A DNA stretch of 64,000 nucleotides from Nitrospirota bacterium. GTDB taxonomy: Bacteria; Nitrospirota; Thermodesulfovibrionia; UBA6902. This document shows, in pieces, positions 9,010-29,387 of the stretch. The notes beneath the pieces are model-generated. The model made no database searches and had not been told where the DNA came from. It worked only from the letters and a program-made list of their open reading frames with translations. The stretch covers positions 1-64,000 of the forward strand of contig JACQZF010000029.1 of assembly GCA_016213945.1 (NCBI GenBank), in the 5' to 3' direction. Numbering within the stretch: position 1 is the first letter of the stretch; each line of letters opens with the position of its first letter. The translations under genes were made by a program, and so were the position numbers.

Positions 9010-9076
9010 AAAGTAGTCAGTAGTCAGTAGTTAGTAAACAGTAGTCAAAGACAATCCCTCAACTGCCTGTTGCAAA
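9010..9076. repeat. Low-complexity repeat of AGTAGTCAGTAG words between glmU and glmS
   Basis: Short words (AGTAGTCAGTAGTCAGTAG, then a reverse-oriented partner CTACTTGCTACTTTT at 9076-9090 reaching into the glmU stop region) make an imperfect inverted repeat. Same style as the other word-repeat families here. Confidence 0.5.
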
Positions 9077-10468
9077 CTACTTGCTACTTTTTTCTCCTTT
9101 CGCTTTTAACTGTTTCTGCTTTACCCAGCCCACAAGGTTTTGCTGTTTGCTTCTGCTTATTGCGAGTGAGCCTGCCGGGACATCTTTTGTTACAGTAGCT
9201 CCGGCTGCTACATACGCGCCCTTTCCAATTTTAACAGGCGCGACAAGCTGGGAGTCGCTTCCTATAAATACCCCGTTCTCAATAACAGTGGTAAATTTAT
9301 TCTTCCCGTCATAATTACAGGTGATAGTGCCTGCTCCTATATTAACATCTTTGCCGACAACAGCATCTCCGAGGTATGTCAGGTGAGACGCCTTTGTCCC
9401 GTTGCCGATGTTAGATTTTTTCACTTCTACGAAATTACCTATCTTTACATCGCGGCCAATCACACTGTTGGGCCTGAGATGCGCAAAAGGCCCGATCGTG
9501 CTTCCATTGCCTACTCTGCTTTTTTCAATAAGAGAGTTGTCCTTGACTGTAACTCCGTCACCGAGAACGCTTTCAGAGATCCTCGCTCCCGGATATATAA
9601 CGCAATTCTTACCAATCCTTGTTTTGTCCTCGAGGTAAGTGTTCGGATAAATGACCGTGTCCCTGCCAATAGTCACAGATGGATGAACGAATGCTGTATC
9701 GGGGTCAATGAATGTAACACCGTTTTCCATCCACTTAACAATTATCCTTCTTTTTATAATGTCTGAAATTTTGTACAGTTCTTCCCTGTTATTCACTCCG
9801 CTTATCTCCTCCGCAGGACAGACATATGCCTCAAGCCTCTTGCCTGCCCTGGAGACAATCCCGACGATGTCGGTGAGATAATATTCGCCTGAGGAACTGT
9901 TCATTTTAATCCTGTCGAGATGTTTCAGGACATCAGTCTCCATCACATAAACGCCGCCGTTTAATTCTTTAAACTTAATTTTTTCCTCAGGTGTGGCGTG
10001 TTTATCTTCCACAATGCCCGTGACCCTGCCTTTTTCATCGCGCAGGACCCTGCCATAGCCGGGCATTGAATCATCAATAAAAGTCAAAAAAGACAGGACA
10101 TTTTTATTCCGCCTGTGATTTGTCAGCAGCCCTTTCAATGTCTTTGTGGTTATAAGGGGACAGTCTCCGTTAAGAACAAGGACCGTGCCTTTTTTCAATT
10201 CCTTTTTAGCGGTTGAAACAGCGTCCCCGGTGCCGAGAAGTTTTTCCTGCACAACAAATGACAGGTGATCTTCGCCATTCATTCGTTTCTTAACGGCTTC
10301 AGCGCCGTTGCCGATGACCACTACGGTTTTTTGAGGCTTCAGAGGTTTAACTGCATCAATTGTGTATTGAAGCATAGGCCTTCCCAATGCCTCATGAAGG
10401 ACTTTGGGCAGAAGGGATTTCATCCTCTTCCCTTTGCCCGCTGCAAGTATAACTACCGACAGGTTCAT
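9077..10468 (-). CDS. glmU: Bifunctional GlmU: GlcN-1-P acetyltransferase / GlcNAc-1-P uridylyltransferase
   Basis: 463 aa. The N-terminal Rossmann-type uridylyltransferase domain (about 1-230) carries LAAGKGKRMKS and NGDCPLI; the C-terminal left-handed beta-helix (about 250-450) shows hexapeptide repeats and the acetyltransferase segment NFVEVKKS and KASHLTYLGDAVVG. It makes UDP-GlcNAc from GlcN-1-P, acetyl-CoA and UTP. The gene lies 70 bp upstream of glmS on the same strand, so the entry and exit steps of the pathway are probably coexpressed. Confidence 0.96.
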   Translation of the reverse strand: MNLSVVILAAGKGKRMKSLLPKVLHEALGRPMLQYTIDAVKPLKPQKTVVVIGNGAEAVKKRMNGEDHLSFVVQEKLLGTGDAVSTAKKELKKGTVLVLNGDCPLITTKTLKGLLTNHRRNKNVLSFLTFIDDSMPGYGRVLRDEKGRVTGIVEDKHATPEEKIKFKELNGGVYVMETDVLKHLDRIKMNSSSGEYYLTDIVGIVSRAGKRLEAYVCPAEEISGVNNREELYKISDIIKRRIIVKWMENGVTFIDPDTAFVHPSVTIGRDTVIYPNTYLEDKTRIGKNCVIYPGARISESVLGDGVTVKDNSLIEKSRVGNGSTIGPFAHLRPNSVIGRDVKIGNFVEVKKSNIGNGTKASHLTYLGDAVVGKDVNIGAGTITCNYDGKNKFTTVIENGVFIGSDSQLVAPVKIGKGAYVAAGATVTKDVPAGSLAISRSKQQNLVGWVKQKQLKAKGEKSSK

Positions 10469-10569: not shown

Positions 10570-11683
10570 TTACATTTGCACATATTCCTTCAGCAATGCC
10601 GGATACATAAGAGGATTGAACAGGATGTTTGTCATGAAATAACATTCATGCGTGCAATAGCAGCTTTTGTTCTGAATTGATTGCAGGACCTTCTGCGCCC
10701 CGCTGTCTTTCAATATTTCTCTCAGATCGTAACCGCTGTCCCTCACATTTCCCATTTTCATATTAAATGATTCGCAGGGATAGACATCTCCTGTCTCTGT
10801 CAGGACAAGGTTTAACTTCCCCGCGTAGCAGGGTATCAACTGTTTCTTCCGGGCCATTGTCTCATAGATCAAACTGCGCTGAAGTATGTCCTGTGCGGCT
10901 TTTAGCTTTGCCCCTTTGAAACTGTAGATGCCGGAAACTTTTTTCTTCAGGTTTGCTGCCAGCCTGTCAATGGTTTTGTGGTACTTTTCAATGTCAACCT
11001 CTTTCAGCCCTTTATCGGAAACACTTCCCCTTATTAGCGACACCGTGTGGGTCCTGACCTTGTCCAGCCCGTTTACAAAGTCAATAAGTTCATCAATATG
11101 GCGCTGGTTGTTCATCAATATGGCGCTGGTTCGCGGAACAAAAAACCGTATTTATGCCGAGGTCGAAATTCGGGTATGCGTCAAGCAATTCACCAAGGAC
11201 TTTGTATGTTTGCAGGGTCTTCTGAAAACTTCCCTTCATTCCCCTTATCGAATCATGCATATCTTCCAGTCCCTCCATGGAAAGCTTCACGACTATCGTG
11301 CTTTTTTTGCAGTGTTTCAGTATCGCCTCGACCTTCTCTCTGATCACATCGGTGAGCAGTCCGTTGGTCGGGAAGAGGATTATCGCAGGCTTGTTTCTTT
11401 CATAAAACACCTTTGTGATCTCCACTATGTCATCCCTCAGAAATATTTCGCCTCCTGAGAATGCGAGCCAGAGCAGGCTGCCAAGAGATGAAGATATTTT
11501 TTCAATTTCACCGAGGGACAATTCAGGCAGATTTTCTTTCTTCTCTTTCCCTGAAATATAAAAACAGAAGGGGCATCTGAGATTGCATCTTCTGGTGAGG
11601 AAGAAGGTCAATTGAATTGGGCTTCGCTTCCAGAAGACTGAACCGATATGGCGAAAAGGAGAGTAGGACATATTAATATCCAC
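10570..11683 (-). pseudogene. Radical SAM/SPASM protein split by a 22-bp tandem duplication
   Basis: The first part (11683 or ATG 11671 down to 11093) has the radical SAM cluster motif CNLRCPFCFY near residue 33, and SGGEIFLRDD. The second part (11118-10570) has a cysteine-rich C-terminal region (ESFNMKMGNVRD, CYCTHECYFM) typical of SPASM-like Fe-S domains. The two frames share NQRHIDE because 22 bp at 11088-11109 are repeated exactly at 11110-11131; removing one copy restores one continuous frame of about 360 codons. Substrate unknown. Next to a glycosyltransferase gene, so a cell-surface role is possible but unproven. Recent mutation, phase-variable state or assembly error are all possible. 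Confidence 0.85.
11088..11131. repeat. Perfect 22-bp tandem duplication inside radical SAM gene
   Basis: Two adjacent identical units of 22 bp beginning GTTCATCAATATGGCGC. Because 22 is not a multiple of 3 the reading frame changes after the duplication. Confidence 0.97.
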
Positions 11684-12788
11684 AGATCGCGCAGATTAAA
11701 AAAGACATCTGTGTAAATTCGCGTAATCTGCGGCCCTTGAAATATTCAATCGCTCCCGCAATTGCTCCGGTCCCGACCGGAAGGGGATAGAGCATACTGT
11801 AGTATATAAAAGCCTGCACGGCGAATAAAATGCCCCCTGTCTCAAAAAACGCCTTTAACAATCTCCTGCTTATAAATGCATTCAAAATGAAGATGAGAAG
11901 CAGAACGAACAATAAAGCAGGCTGTTGTAAAACCGCTGTCACGAGCAAAGTTATCACGCTCAGAAGATATGAAGCAACATCGGTCTTTAATTCTACCGAG
12001 GCTGTGCCGGAGTCTGTGAGCAGGTCTTTGTTTTTCAACGAATACATGTTCCAGTATTTGGATTTCCTGTAAGCGTTCTTCAACGATCTAAGGAGAGAAA
12101 AATTAAATATGTGCTGCACCTGAATGTCAGGCTCCATAACAAGCCTGCATCCCATACTTCTCAGCCTGTGGCTGAACTCTACGTCTTCGATAATCGGCAG
12201 AAAAACTTCAGGAAAGCCGCCGCTCATTTTAAAGATCTCCGCGTCAATTATCATTGCGTGGGCGGCGATATAATCGGGGTCCTCAATGTTTTTGGTCTCG
12301 GAATAATTTATGTATACAGACTGAAAGATGCTGAAGAAATTTCTGTCATAGGGCATCCGGGTGTATGTGCCTCCGATTAATAATCCCCCTGTATCCCCCT
12401 TTTTCAAAGGGGGAATTCCTTCCTTACTCCTCCCCTTATCTAAGGGGAGGCCGGGTGGGGTTATGGGGTGTGAAGACACGAATGCCCTGTTTGCAATCGC
12501 CAGCGTATCTTTCTGAAAGATGCAGTCTGCGTCGGTGAAGAAGATGATCTCGCCGCTGCTGTTCTCTGCCCCGGTATTGCGCGCTTTTGATGTCCCTGAG
12601 CGTTTTTCAAGGCTGATGAGTTTGCAGGGAAACTTTCTTATGATCTCAACGGACCCGTCTTCTGAACGGTCATCAACAACGATGACTTCAAAGTTCTTAT
12701 ATCGGGAGGCAAATATGGACTCAAGACATTTGCCTATAGTCGCGGCCTTATTGTAATTCGGGATGACTACGGAGATACTTTTTTCCAT
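11673..12788 (-). CDS. Family 2 glycosyltransferase with repeat-derived insert and C-terminus
   Basis: 371 aa. The GT-A domain starts with SVVIPNYNKAATIGKCLESI, has VVDDRSEDGS and the metal-binding FFTDADCIF (DxD-like DAD), and ends with two or three hydrophobic segments (about 270-345) that would anchor it in the inner membrane. Residues about 110-138 (PPGLPLDKGRSKEGIPPLKK and following GDTGG) are encoded by a G-run palindromic repeat inserted in frame. The last 20 residues come from another repeat at 11680-11741. Overlaps the start of the radical SAM gene downstream. Likely cell-envelope sugar transfer; acceptor unknown. Confidence 0.85.
   Translation of the reverse strand: MEKSISVVIPNYNKAATIGKCLESIFASRYKNFEVIVVDDRSEDGSVEIIRKFPCKLISLEKRSGTSKARNTGAENSSGEIIFFTDADCIFQKDTLAIANRAFVSSHPITPPGLPLDKGRSKEGIPPLKKGDTGGLLIGGTYTRMPYDRNFFSIFQSVYINYSETKNIEDPDYIAAHAMIIDAEIFKMSGGFPEVFLPIIEDVEFSHRLRSMGCRLVMEPDIQVQHIFNFSLLRSLKNAYRKSKYWNMYSLKNKDLLTDSGTASVELKTDVASYLLSVITLLVTAVLQQPALLFVLLLIFILNAFISRRLLKAFFETGGILFAVQAFIYYSMLYPLPVGTGAIAGAIEYFKGRRLREFTQMSFLICAICGY
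11680..11741. repeat. Palindromic repeat family D (copy 1), encodes the end of the glycosyltransferase
   Basis: ATCCACAGATCGCGCAGATT and CGTAATCTGCGG are the arms. A related copy is at 41592-41671. On the minus strand it encodes the last residues and stop codon of the glycosyltransferase. Confidence 0.7.
12382..12466. repeat. G-run palindromic repeat family E, inside glycosyltransferase
   Basis: Alternating C-runs and G-runs (AATCCCCCTGTATCCCCC, AAAGGGGGAATT, CTCCTCCCC, AAGGGGAGGCCGGGTGGGG). It keeps the glycosyltransferase frame open and adds about 28 residues. Nearly the same coding insert occurs at 51220-51312 in an unrelated protein. Confidence 0.85.
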
Positions 12789-28361: not shown

Positions 28362-29354
28362 ATGCCTGAGTTAAGAAAGGACCCGGTATCCGGCAGATGG
28401 GTTATTATTTCAGTTGAAAGGGGCAAGCGCCCTACTGATTTCGGAATGAGGACCCTCACGAAAAAAGGGGGCTTCTGCGCCTTCTGCGAGGGTAACGAGC
28501 GTACAACACCTGTAGAAATTTTAGCCTTCAGACCGGATGGCAGCAAACCTAATACACCCGGGTGGACTCTCAGGGTTGTTCCGAATAAATTCCCCGCCCT
28601 GCACATTGAGGGCAACTTAAACAGGGCCGGCGAAGGCATATTTGACAAGATGAACGGCATCGGCGCGCATGAGGTAATTGTAGAAACCCCCAATCACAGC
28701 CTGACGCTATCAACCATGCCACTGAAATCAATTGAGGATGCCCTCTGGGCATTTCATCACCGGATCACAGACCTTAAAAGGGACCCGCGTTTTAAATATG
28801 TGCTCGTTTTTAAAAATGAAGGCGAGGAGGCAGGCGCTTCGCTTGAACACACACATTCTCAACTGATAGCCCTCCCCATTGTCCCGCACCTGGTAGAGGA
28901 AGAAATTGAACAGGCAAAGCAATATTACAGCTATAAAGAGCGCTGCATTTTCTGCGACATAATGCGTCAGGAGCTAAACAGCAAGGCACGCGTCATCTCA
29001 GAGAATGACGATTTCATTGCGCTTGCGCCGTTTGCGCCACGTTCGCCGTTTGAGACAATGATATTGCCCAGGAAGCATGAATCCAGTTTTATGCCTGACG
29101 GCAAGTTCACCCTTCTGGCGCAGATCCTTCAAAAAACGCTGAAGCAGATTGACAAGGTGCTTGAGATGCCGCCGTATAATCTGATGATCCACACATCGCC
29201 GTTTAAAATCGAGACGAATGAATATTACCACTGGCATATAGAAATAATACCCAAACTCACAAAGATTGCAGGTTTTGAATGGGGGTCGGGGTTTTATATT
29301 AACCCCATGCCGCCTGAAGACGCCGCGAAATTCATGAGAGAAGCGGAGATATAG
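28362..29354 (+). CDS. galT: Galactose-1-phosphate uridylyltransferase family protein
   Basis: 330 aa of the HIT superfamily. Zinc-binding pairs CAFCEGNE (about 45) and CIFCDI (about 195), the nucleophilic HxH motif in EHTHSQLIALP (about 165), and YHWHIEIIPKL near the C-terminus. Exchanges UMP between UDP-glucose and galactose 1-phosphate. Many members in anaerobes act on other sugar phosphates or as ADP-glucose type enzymes, so exact substrate is uncertain. ATG follows GGAGG by 8 bp. Confidence 0.82.
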   Translation: MPELRKDPVSGRWVIISVERGKRPTDFGMRTLTKKGGFCAFCEGNERTTPVEILAFRPDGSKPNTPGWTLRVVPNKFPALHIEGNLNRAGEGIFDKMNGIGAHEVIVETPNHSLTLSTMPLKSIEDALWAFHHRITDLKRDPRFKYVLVFKNEGEEAGASLEHTHSQLIALPIVPHLVEEEIEQAKQYYSYKERCIFCDIMRQELNSKARVISENDDFIALAPFAPRSPFETMILPRKHESSFMPDGKFTLLAQILQKTLKQIDKVLEMPPYNLMIHTSPFKIETNEYYHWHIEIIPKLTKIAGFEWGSGFYINPMPPEDAAKFMREAEI

Positions 29355-29387
29355 CTATTAGCTATTAGCTGATAGCCATTAGCTTAA
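29353..29387. repeat. TAGCTATTAGCT word repeat family F (copy 1)
   Basis: AGCTATTAGCTGATAGCCAT and following TAGCTT lies between the galT stop and the kinase start. Related copies at 33081-33115 and 35243-35282. It can pair with itself as an imperfect hairpin and leaves no clear ribosome site before the kinase ATG. Confidence 0.6.

Follow-up and report, generated by a model that had tools for sequence, protein, structure and literature searches.

The radical SAM/SPASM enzymes with solved structures include SkfB (6efn), a CteB-type enzyme (5wgg) and PqqE (6c8v), and the CxxxCxxC core and SPASM domain of these relatives are also encoded in the window, the 64-kb stretch of a Nitrospirota draft assembly analysed here. 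Unlike in these relatives, the gene in the window is split into two frames, at a short exact tandem duplication. Such a duplication can be compared with two described systems. In contingency loci of other bacteria, changes in tandem-repeat copy number cause phase variation, as exemplified by promoter tandem repeats (PMC12817950). The window resembles these loci in its exact tandem copies, which are able to expand or collapse, and in a unit that changes the frame, but it has only two copies in a single genome, invariant relatives and a repeat-free ancestral form. In MAG curation, on the other hand, flank overlap at scaffold joins has been found left behind as duplicate sequence (PMC7111523). 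Duplicate sequence at a flank overlap and incorrect protein-coding genes are features that these join errors would share with the window; unlike them, the window shows no Ns in its consensus at 11088-11131.

The 22-bp duplication and the gene it splits

In the duplication, the 22-bp unit GTTCATCAATATGGCGCTGGTT stands twice, exactly and head to tail, at 11088..11109 and 11110..11131 without strand assignment, and TRF reports it as a repeat of period 22 with 2.0 copies and a 100% match. A direct scan showed that the periodic run comprises exactly 44 bases (2 x 22), with no further matching base at either end and no microhomology at its junction. The same scan found no other exact adjacent repeat with a unit >10 in the 64-kb window, where the number of such repeats expected by chance is ~4e-9. 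Allowing up to 2 mismatches, the unit was found nowhere else in the genome; as it is confined to 11088-11131, insertion of a mobile or dispersed repeat was ruled out. Hairpin-driven duplication was likewise rejected, since DNA folding at the site is no better than that of shuffled sequences (z ~0).

The radical SAM gene lies on the minus strand and is present as two overlapping frames. The 5' piece (11093..11683, minus strand) encodes the radical SAM core (PF04055, E 2.7e-12, over the curated cut-off) with the CxxxCxxC motif in the form CNLRCPFC, and terminates at a TGA inside the duplication. The 3' piece (10570..11118, minus strand) encodes the end of the barrel and the SPASM domain (PF13186, E 3.4e-07, over the curated cut-off). 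Thus the two domains fall on separate frames in the window, while nearly all orthologues carry both on one polypeptide. The closest intact orthologue, from a genome of the same genus (G004), is 359 residues long counted from its ATG. The 5' piece covers residues 1-186 of this protein and the 3' piece residues 181-359, each gap-free and with 94% identity, and the only residues shared by the two are NQRHID, encoded by the duplication. No second lesion was found in either piece in this alignment. The first-pass annotation had described an exact 22-bp tandem duplication that shifts the frame of a radical SAM gene, with NQRHIDE at the end of one frame and the start of the next. These observations were all confirmed, NQRHIDE closing the upstream frame (...SANQRHIDEQPAPY, followed by the stop) and opening the downstream frame (MMNNQRHIDELIDF...), and its view that the extra copy is the sole lesion is supported by the alignment of the unedited pieces to one intact orthologue.

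Alignment to the CteB-type structure 5wgg places the break within the radical SAM core, so neither piece should be active alone. The 3' piece has an in-frame TTG/ATG shortly upstream of the break, and no Shine-Dalgarno sequence was seen before this restart codon. Based on the position of the break and the lack of a Shine-Dalgarno sequence, a functional split gene was ruled out. An intact second copy in the genome was also ruled out, as the other own-genome matches listed show only 27-35% identity. No NCBIfam radical SAM equivalog comes near its cut-off, the best score of the intact orthologue being 70.8 bits where 500 are required. As predicted from its domains, the intact gene encodes a conserved and so far undescribed radical SAM/SPASM enzyme.

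Upstream of this gene lies a family 2 glycosyltransferase gene (11673..12788, minus strand), the end of which runs into the beginning of the radical SAM gene in an overlap, and downstream lies a glmU-like gene for UDP-GlcNAc synthesis, named from sequence (9077..10468, minus strand). Both are conserved neighbours, and the order of glycosyltransferase, radical SAM gene and glmU is kept in relatives. The surface-modifying role proposed in the first-pass annotation remains putative, suggested only by the genes next to it, the family 2 glycosyltransferase and glmU. The intact gene is of modest interest as a nearly order-wide radical SAM/SPASM enzyme in a fixed position between these two genes. Within the glycosyltransferase gene, positions 12375-12460 hold a low-complexity stretch, CCCCCTGTATCCCCCTTTTTCAAAGGGGGAATTCC..., encoding HPITPPGLPLDKGRSKEGIPPLKKGDTGG, which resembles a dispersed intergenic repeat copied in frame. 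The G004 orthologue holds it in a shorter version, and text like it occurs inside the radical SAM gene of another genome (G003).

Conservation and selection in the order

Of the 47 genomes of the order, 41 have an orthologue (E <= 1e-50), nearly always as one open frame; among the 26 genomes of good quality the count is 25. Among the 41 gene-bearing genomes, only that of the window gave two frame-split matches. In a 20-sequence alignment, each of the 19 relatives carries the 22-bp unit once, and 22 additional columns are confined to the window, so that the second copy is missing from 19/19 aligned orthologues. A scan of genome contigs gave only four loci, three of which are orthologues. Named records with orthologues all belong to Nitrospirota: Nitrospiraceae SURF_66, Nitrospiria Hainich and Thermodesulfovibrionia FCS_M_Nitrospirota_07.

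Lesions of a different kind were seen in the orthologues of two other draft genomes. In the G021 orthologue (L017, G021:C254, just upstream of 1738), a TAA replaces the Glu codon of the GGE motif, which would reflect either a nonsense mutation or a sequencing error. The N-terminus of the G035 orthologue (L171, G035:C271, 1497-1610) is damaged and contains a stop, its CxxxCxxC region is not readable, and the interval after the glycosyltransferase is too short. No close orthologue was found in G002. The lesions in G021 and G035 are not duplications like that of the window and occur in fragmented drafts; they give no sign of a recurrent switch.

Comparison with the G004 orthologue gave similar values on the two sides of the break, with a dS of 0.284, a dN of 0.030 and a ratio of 0.107 upstream, and a dS of 0.304, a dN of 0.029 and a ratio of 0.095 downstream. 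When amino-acid changes were polarised with other relatives, 5 upstream changes were assigned to the window branch and 7 to that of G004, with 7 and 4, respectively, downstream. The totals of 12 and 11 derived changes reveal no excess on the window branch. With dN/dS at ~0.10 on both sides, the gene was constrained nearly throughout its history since the split from G004. The absence of decay and the continued purifying selection therefore indicate that the lesion is either very young or not real.

The broken frame could be taken as the mark of an old pseudogene that has drifted since losing its function. However, dN/dS is low on either side of the break, the window branch and that of the intact relative match in nonsynonymous changes, and the gene has no additional lesion; by dN/dS and the lineage counts, a drifting pseudogene was ruled out, and its probability is negligible. 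Of the circumstances that the first-pass annotation had named as speaking against its interpretation, absence of the gene from relatives and drift of the gene were both checked: the gene is widely present, and it is not drifting. An assembly artefact, which the annotation had named as well, is favoured by further exact two-copy blocks in this assembly.

Origin of the extra 22 bases

The first-pass annotation had also suggested a phase-variable on/off state, in which slipped-strand mispairing would flip the copy number between 1 and 2 and toggle the enzyme. A switch of this kind, whose two alleles would persist side by side in the population of one Nitrospirota species, would be in line with tandem-repeat phase variation known in other bacteria (PMC12817950); in addition, exact copies of 22 bp are able to collapse, and their length is not a multiple of 3. 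Nevertheless, the suggestion was not upheld and is very improbable, given the invariant single copy in the aligned orthologues, the absence of a duplication split in any of the other gene-bearing genomes and the restriction of the unit to this site. A repeat tract that is conserved or recurrent in relatives and varies in copy number, as would define a contingency locus, was not found. Moreover, the single-copy form has nothing to slip on, because slippage needs repeats and, in the absence of junction homology, there are none here. Collapse of one copy is physically possible, but equally so for any tandem duplication. As judged from sequence, the duplication is most likely ordinary or artefactual, and nothing shows a switch.

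Of the two remaining explanations, a local draft-assembly error is favoured over a real one-off mutation. According to the favoured explanation, which is given an even chance, two overlapping assembly pieces would have been joined end to end with their shared 22 bases left unmerged. The unmerged overlap would produce both the exact two-copy block and a false frameshift, and the organism itself would have an ordinary, intact, single-copy radical SAM/SPASM gene. This explanation agrees with an orthologue that is conserved across the order and almost always in one frame, with the lack of decay (dN/dS 0.107 and 0.095) and with a run of exactly 2 x 22 bases without junction homology.

The alternative, a real and very recent tandem duplication that arose once in the sequenced population and knocked out the gene, is given a little less than an even chance. 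The correct frame of the protein would be lost near residue 186, within the radical SAM barrel, and the SPASM clusters with it. Loss of one copy could revert the lesion, although the duplication would still be an ordinary mutation rather than a switch that has evolved. The exact copies, the lack of another lesion and the unrelaxed dN/dS fit a very young event, and an N-free consensus at the site is most simply explained as the true sequence. Furthermore, the different lesions in G021 and G035 and the lack of a close G002 orthologue suggest that the gene can apparently be lost. The nearly order-wide conservation of the gene and a junction without microhomology argue against a real mutation.

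The rest of the assembly also bears on the choice between an assembly error and a mutation. A lasting natural duplication process should leave slightly diverged copies, often with some junction homology. The sampled sequence covers 2.40 Mb of the 3.50-Mb assembly (~69%), of which 12 kb reads N. This sample contains four exact two-copy blocks with a unit >=16 (18, 22, 28 and 38 bp), each with exactly 2.0 copies. No junction homology was found at the 18-, 28- and 38-bp blocks, and TRF detected no two-copy blocks at 95-99% identity in the 2.40 Mb, the next class being at 94% and lower. Both the additional exact blocks and the missing 95-99% class, which a steady natural process would leave, favour the assembly error and count against the mutation; the pattern fits joins with unmerged overlaps, as described for metagenome assemblies (PMC7111523).

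The 38-bp block (G000:C64:4439-4514, L088) also causes a frameshift, parting two frames of one large repeat-rich ORF. Unlike the 22-bp site, it folds strongly as DNA. The tested part of the protein encoded by this ORF gave no match in 30 relatives, nor did the contig, which may be foreign to the bin. The 38-bp block might hence not belong to the organism, which weakens the case for an assembly error, as does the small number of cases, four in all. In addition, a 44-bp block is shorter than the usual read length, and plain de Bruijn assembly should cope with it. Ns that would mark a join are also lacking: apart from one 12-kb N run that reaches the end of its stretch and is probably withheld sequence, the sampled sequence contains no scaffold Ns, and none flanked by duplicates. 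The assembly error and the mutation were graded as above because the cases are few, no Ns mark a join and the C64 contig may be foreign. The locus serves mainly as a caution that a conserved, constrained gene can look broken in one draft through one short exact duplication; without reads, it should be annotated neither as a pseudogene nor as a switch.

The 18- and 28-bp blocks are intergenic and sit where a dispersed GTCATTCC...GGAATGAC element has its edge. At L131 (9210-9337) and L153 (2460-2597), the dispersed intergenic element starts with GTCATTCCGGCGGCTCCGTCCGACC and ends with GGGAATGAC, and a short tandem duplication, exact in both cases, is found at its right end (18 and 28 bp, respectively). 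Tandem repeats of period 7, often AAGTCAG-like, dominate the genome: in 2.4 Mb, TRF gave 147 arrays with this period and another 84 with period 14, compared to 2 and 34 arrays with periods 6 and 8, respectively. Examples in the window are found at 29352-29384 and at 9012-9047, the latter between the glmS- and glmU-like genes.
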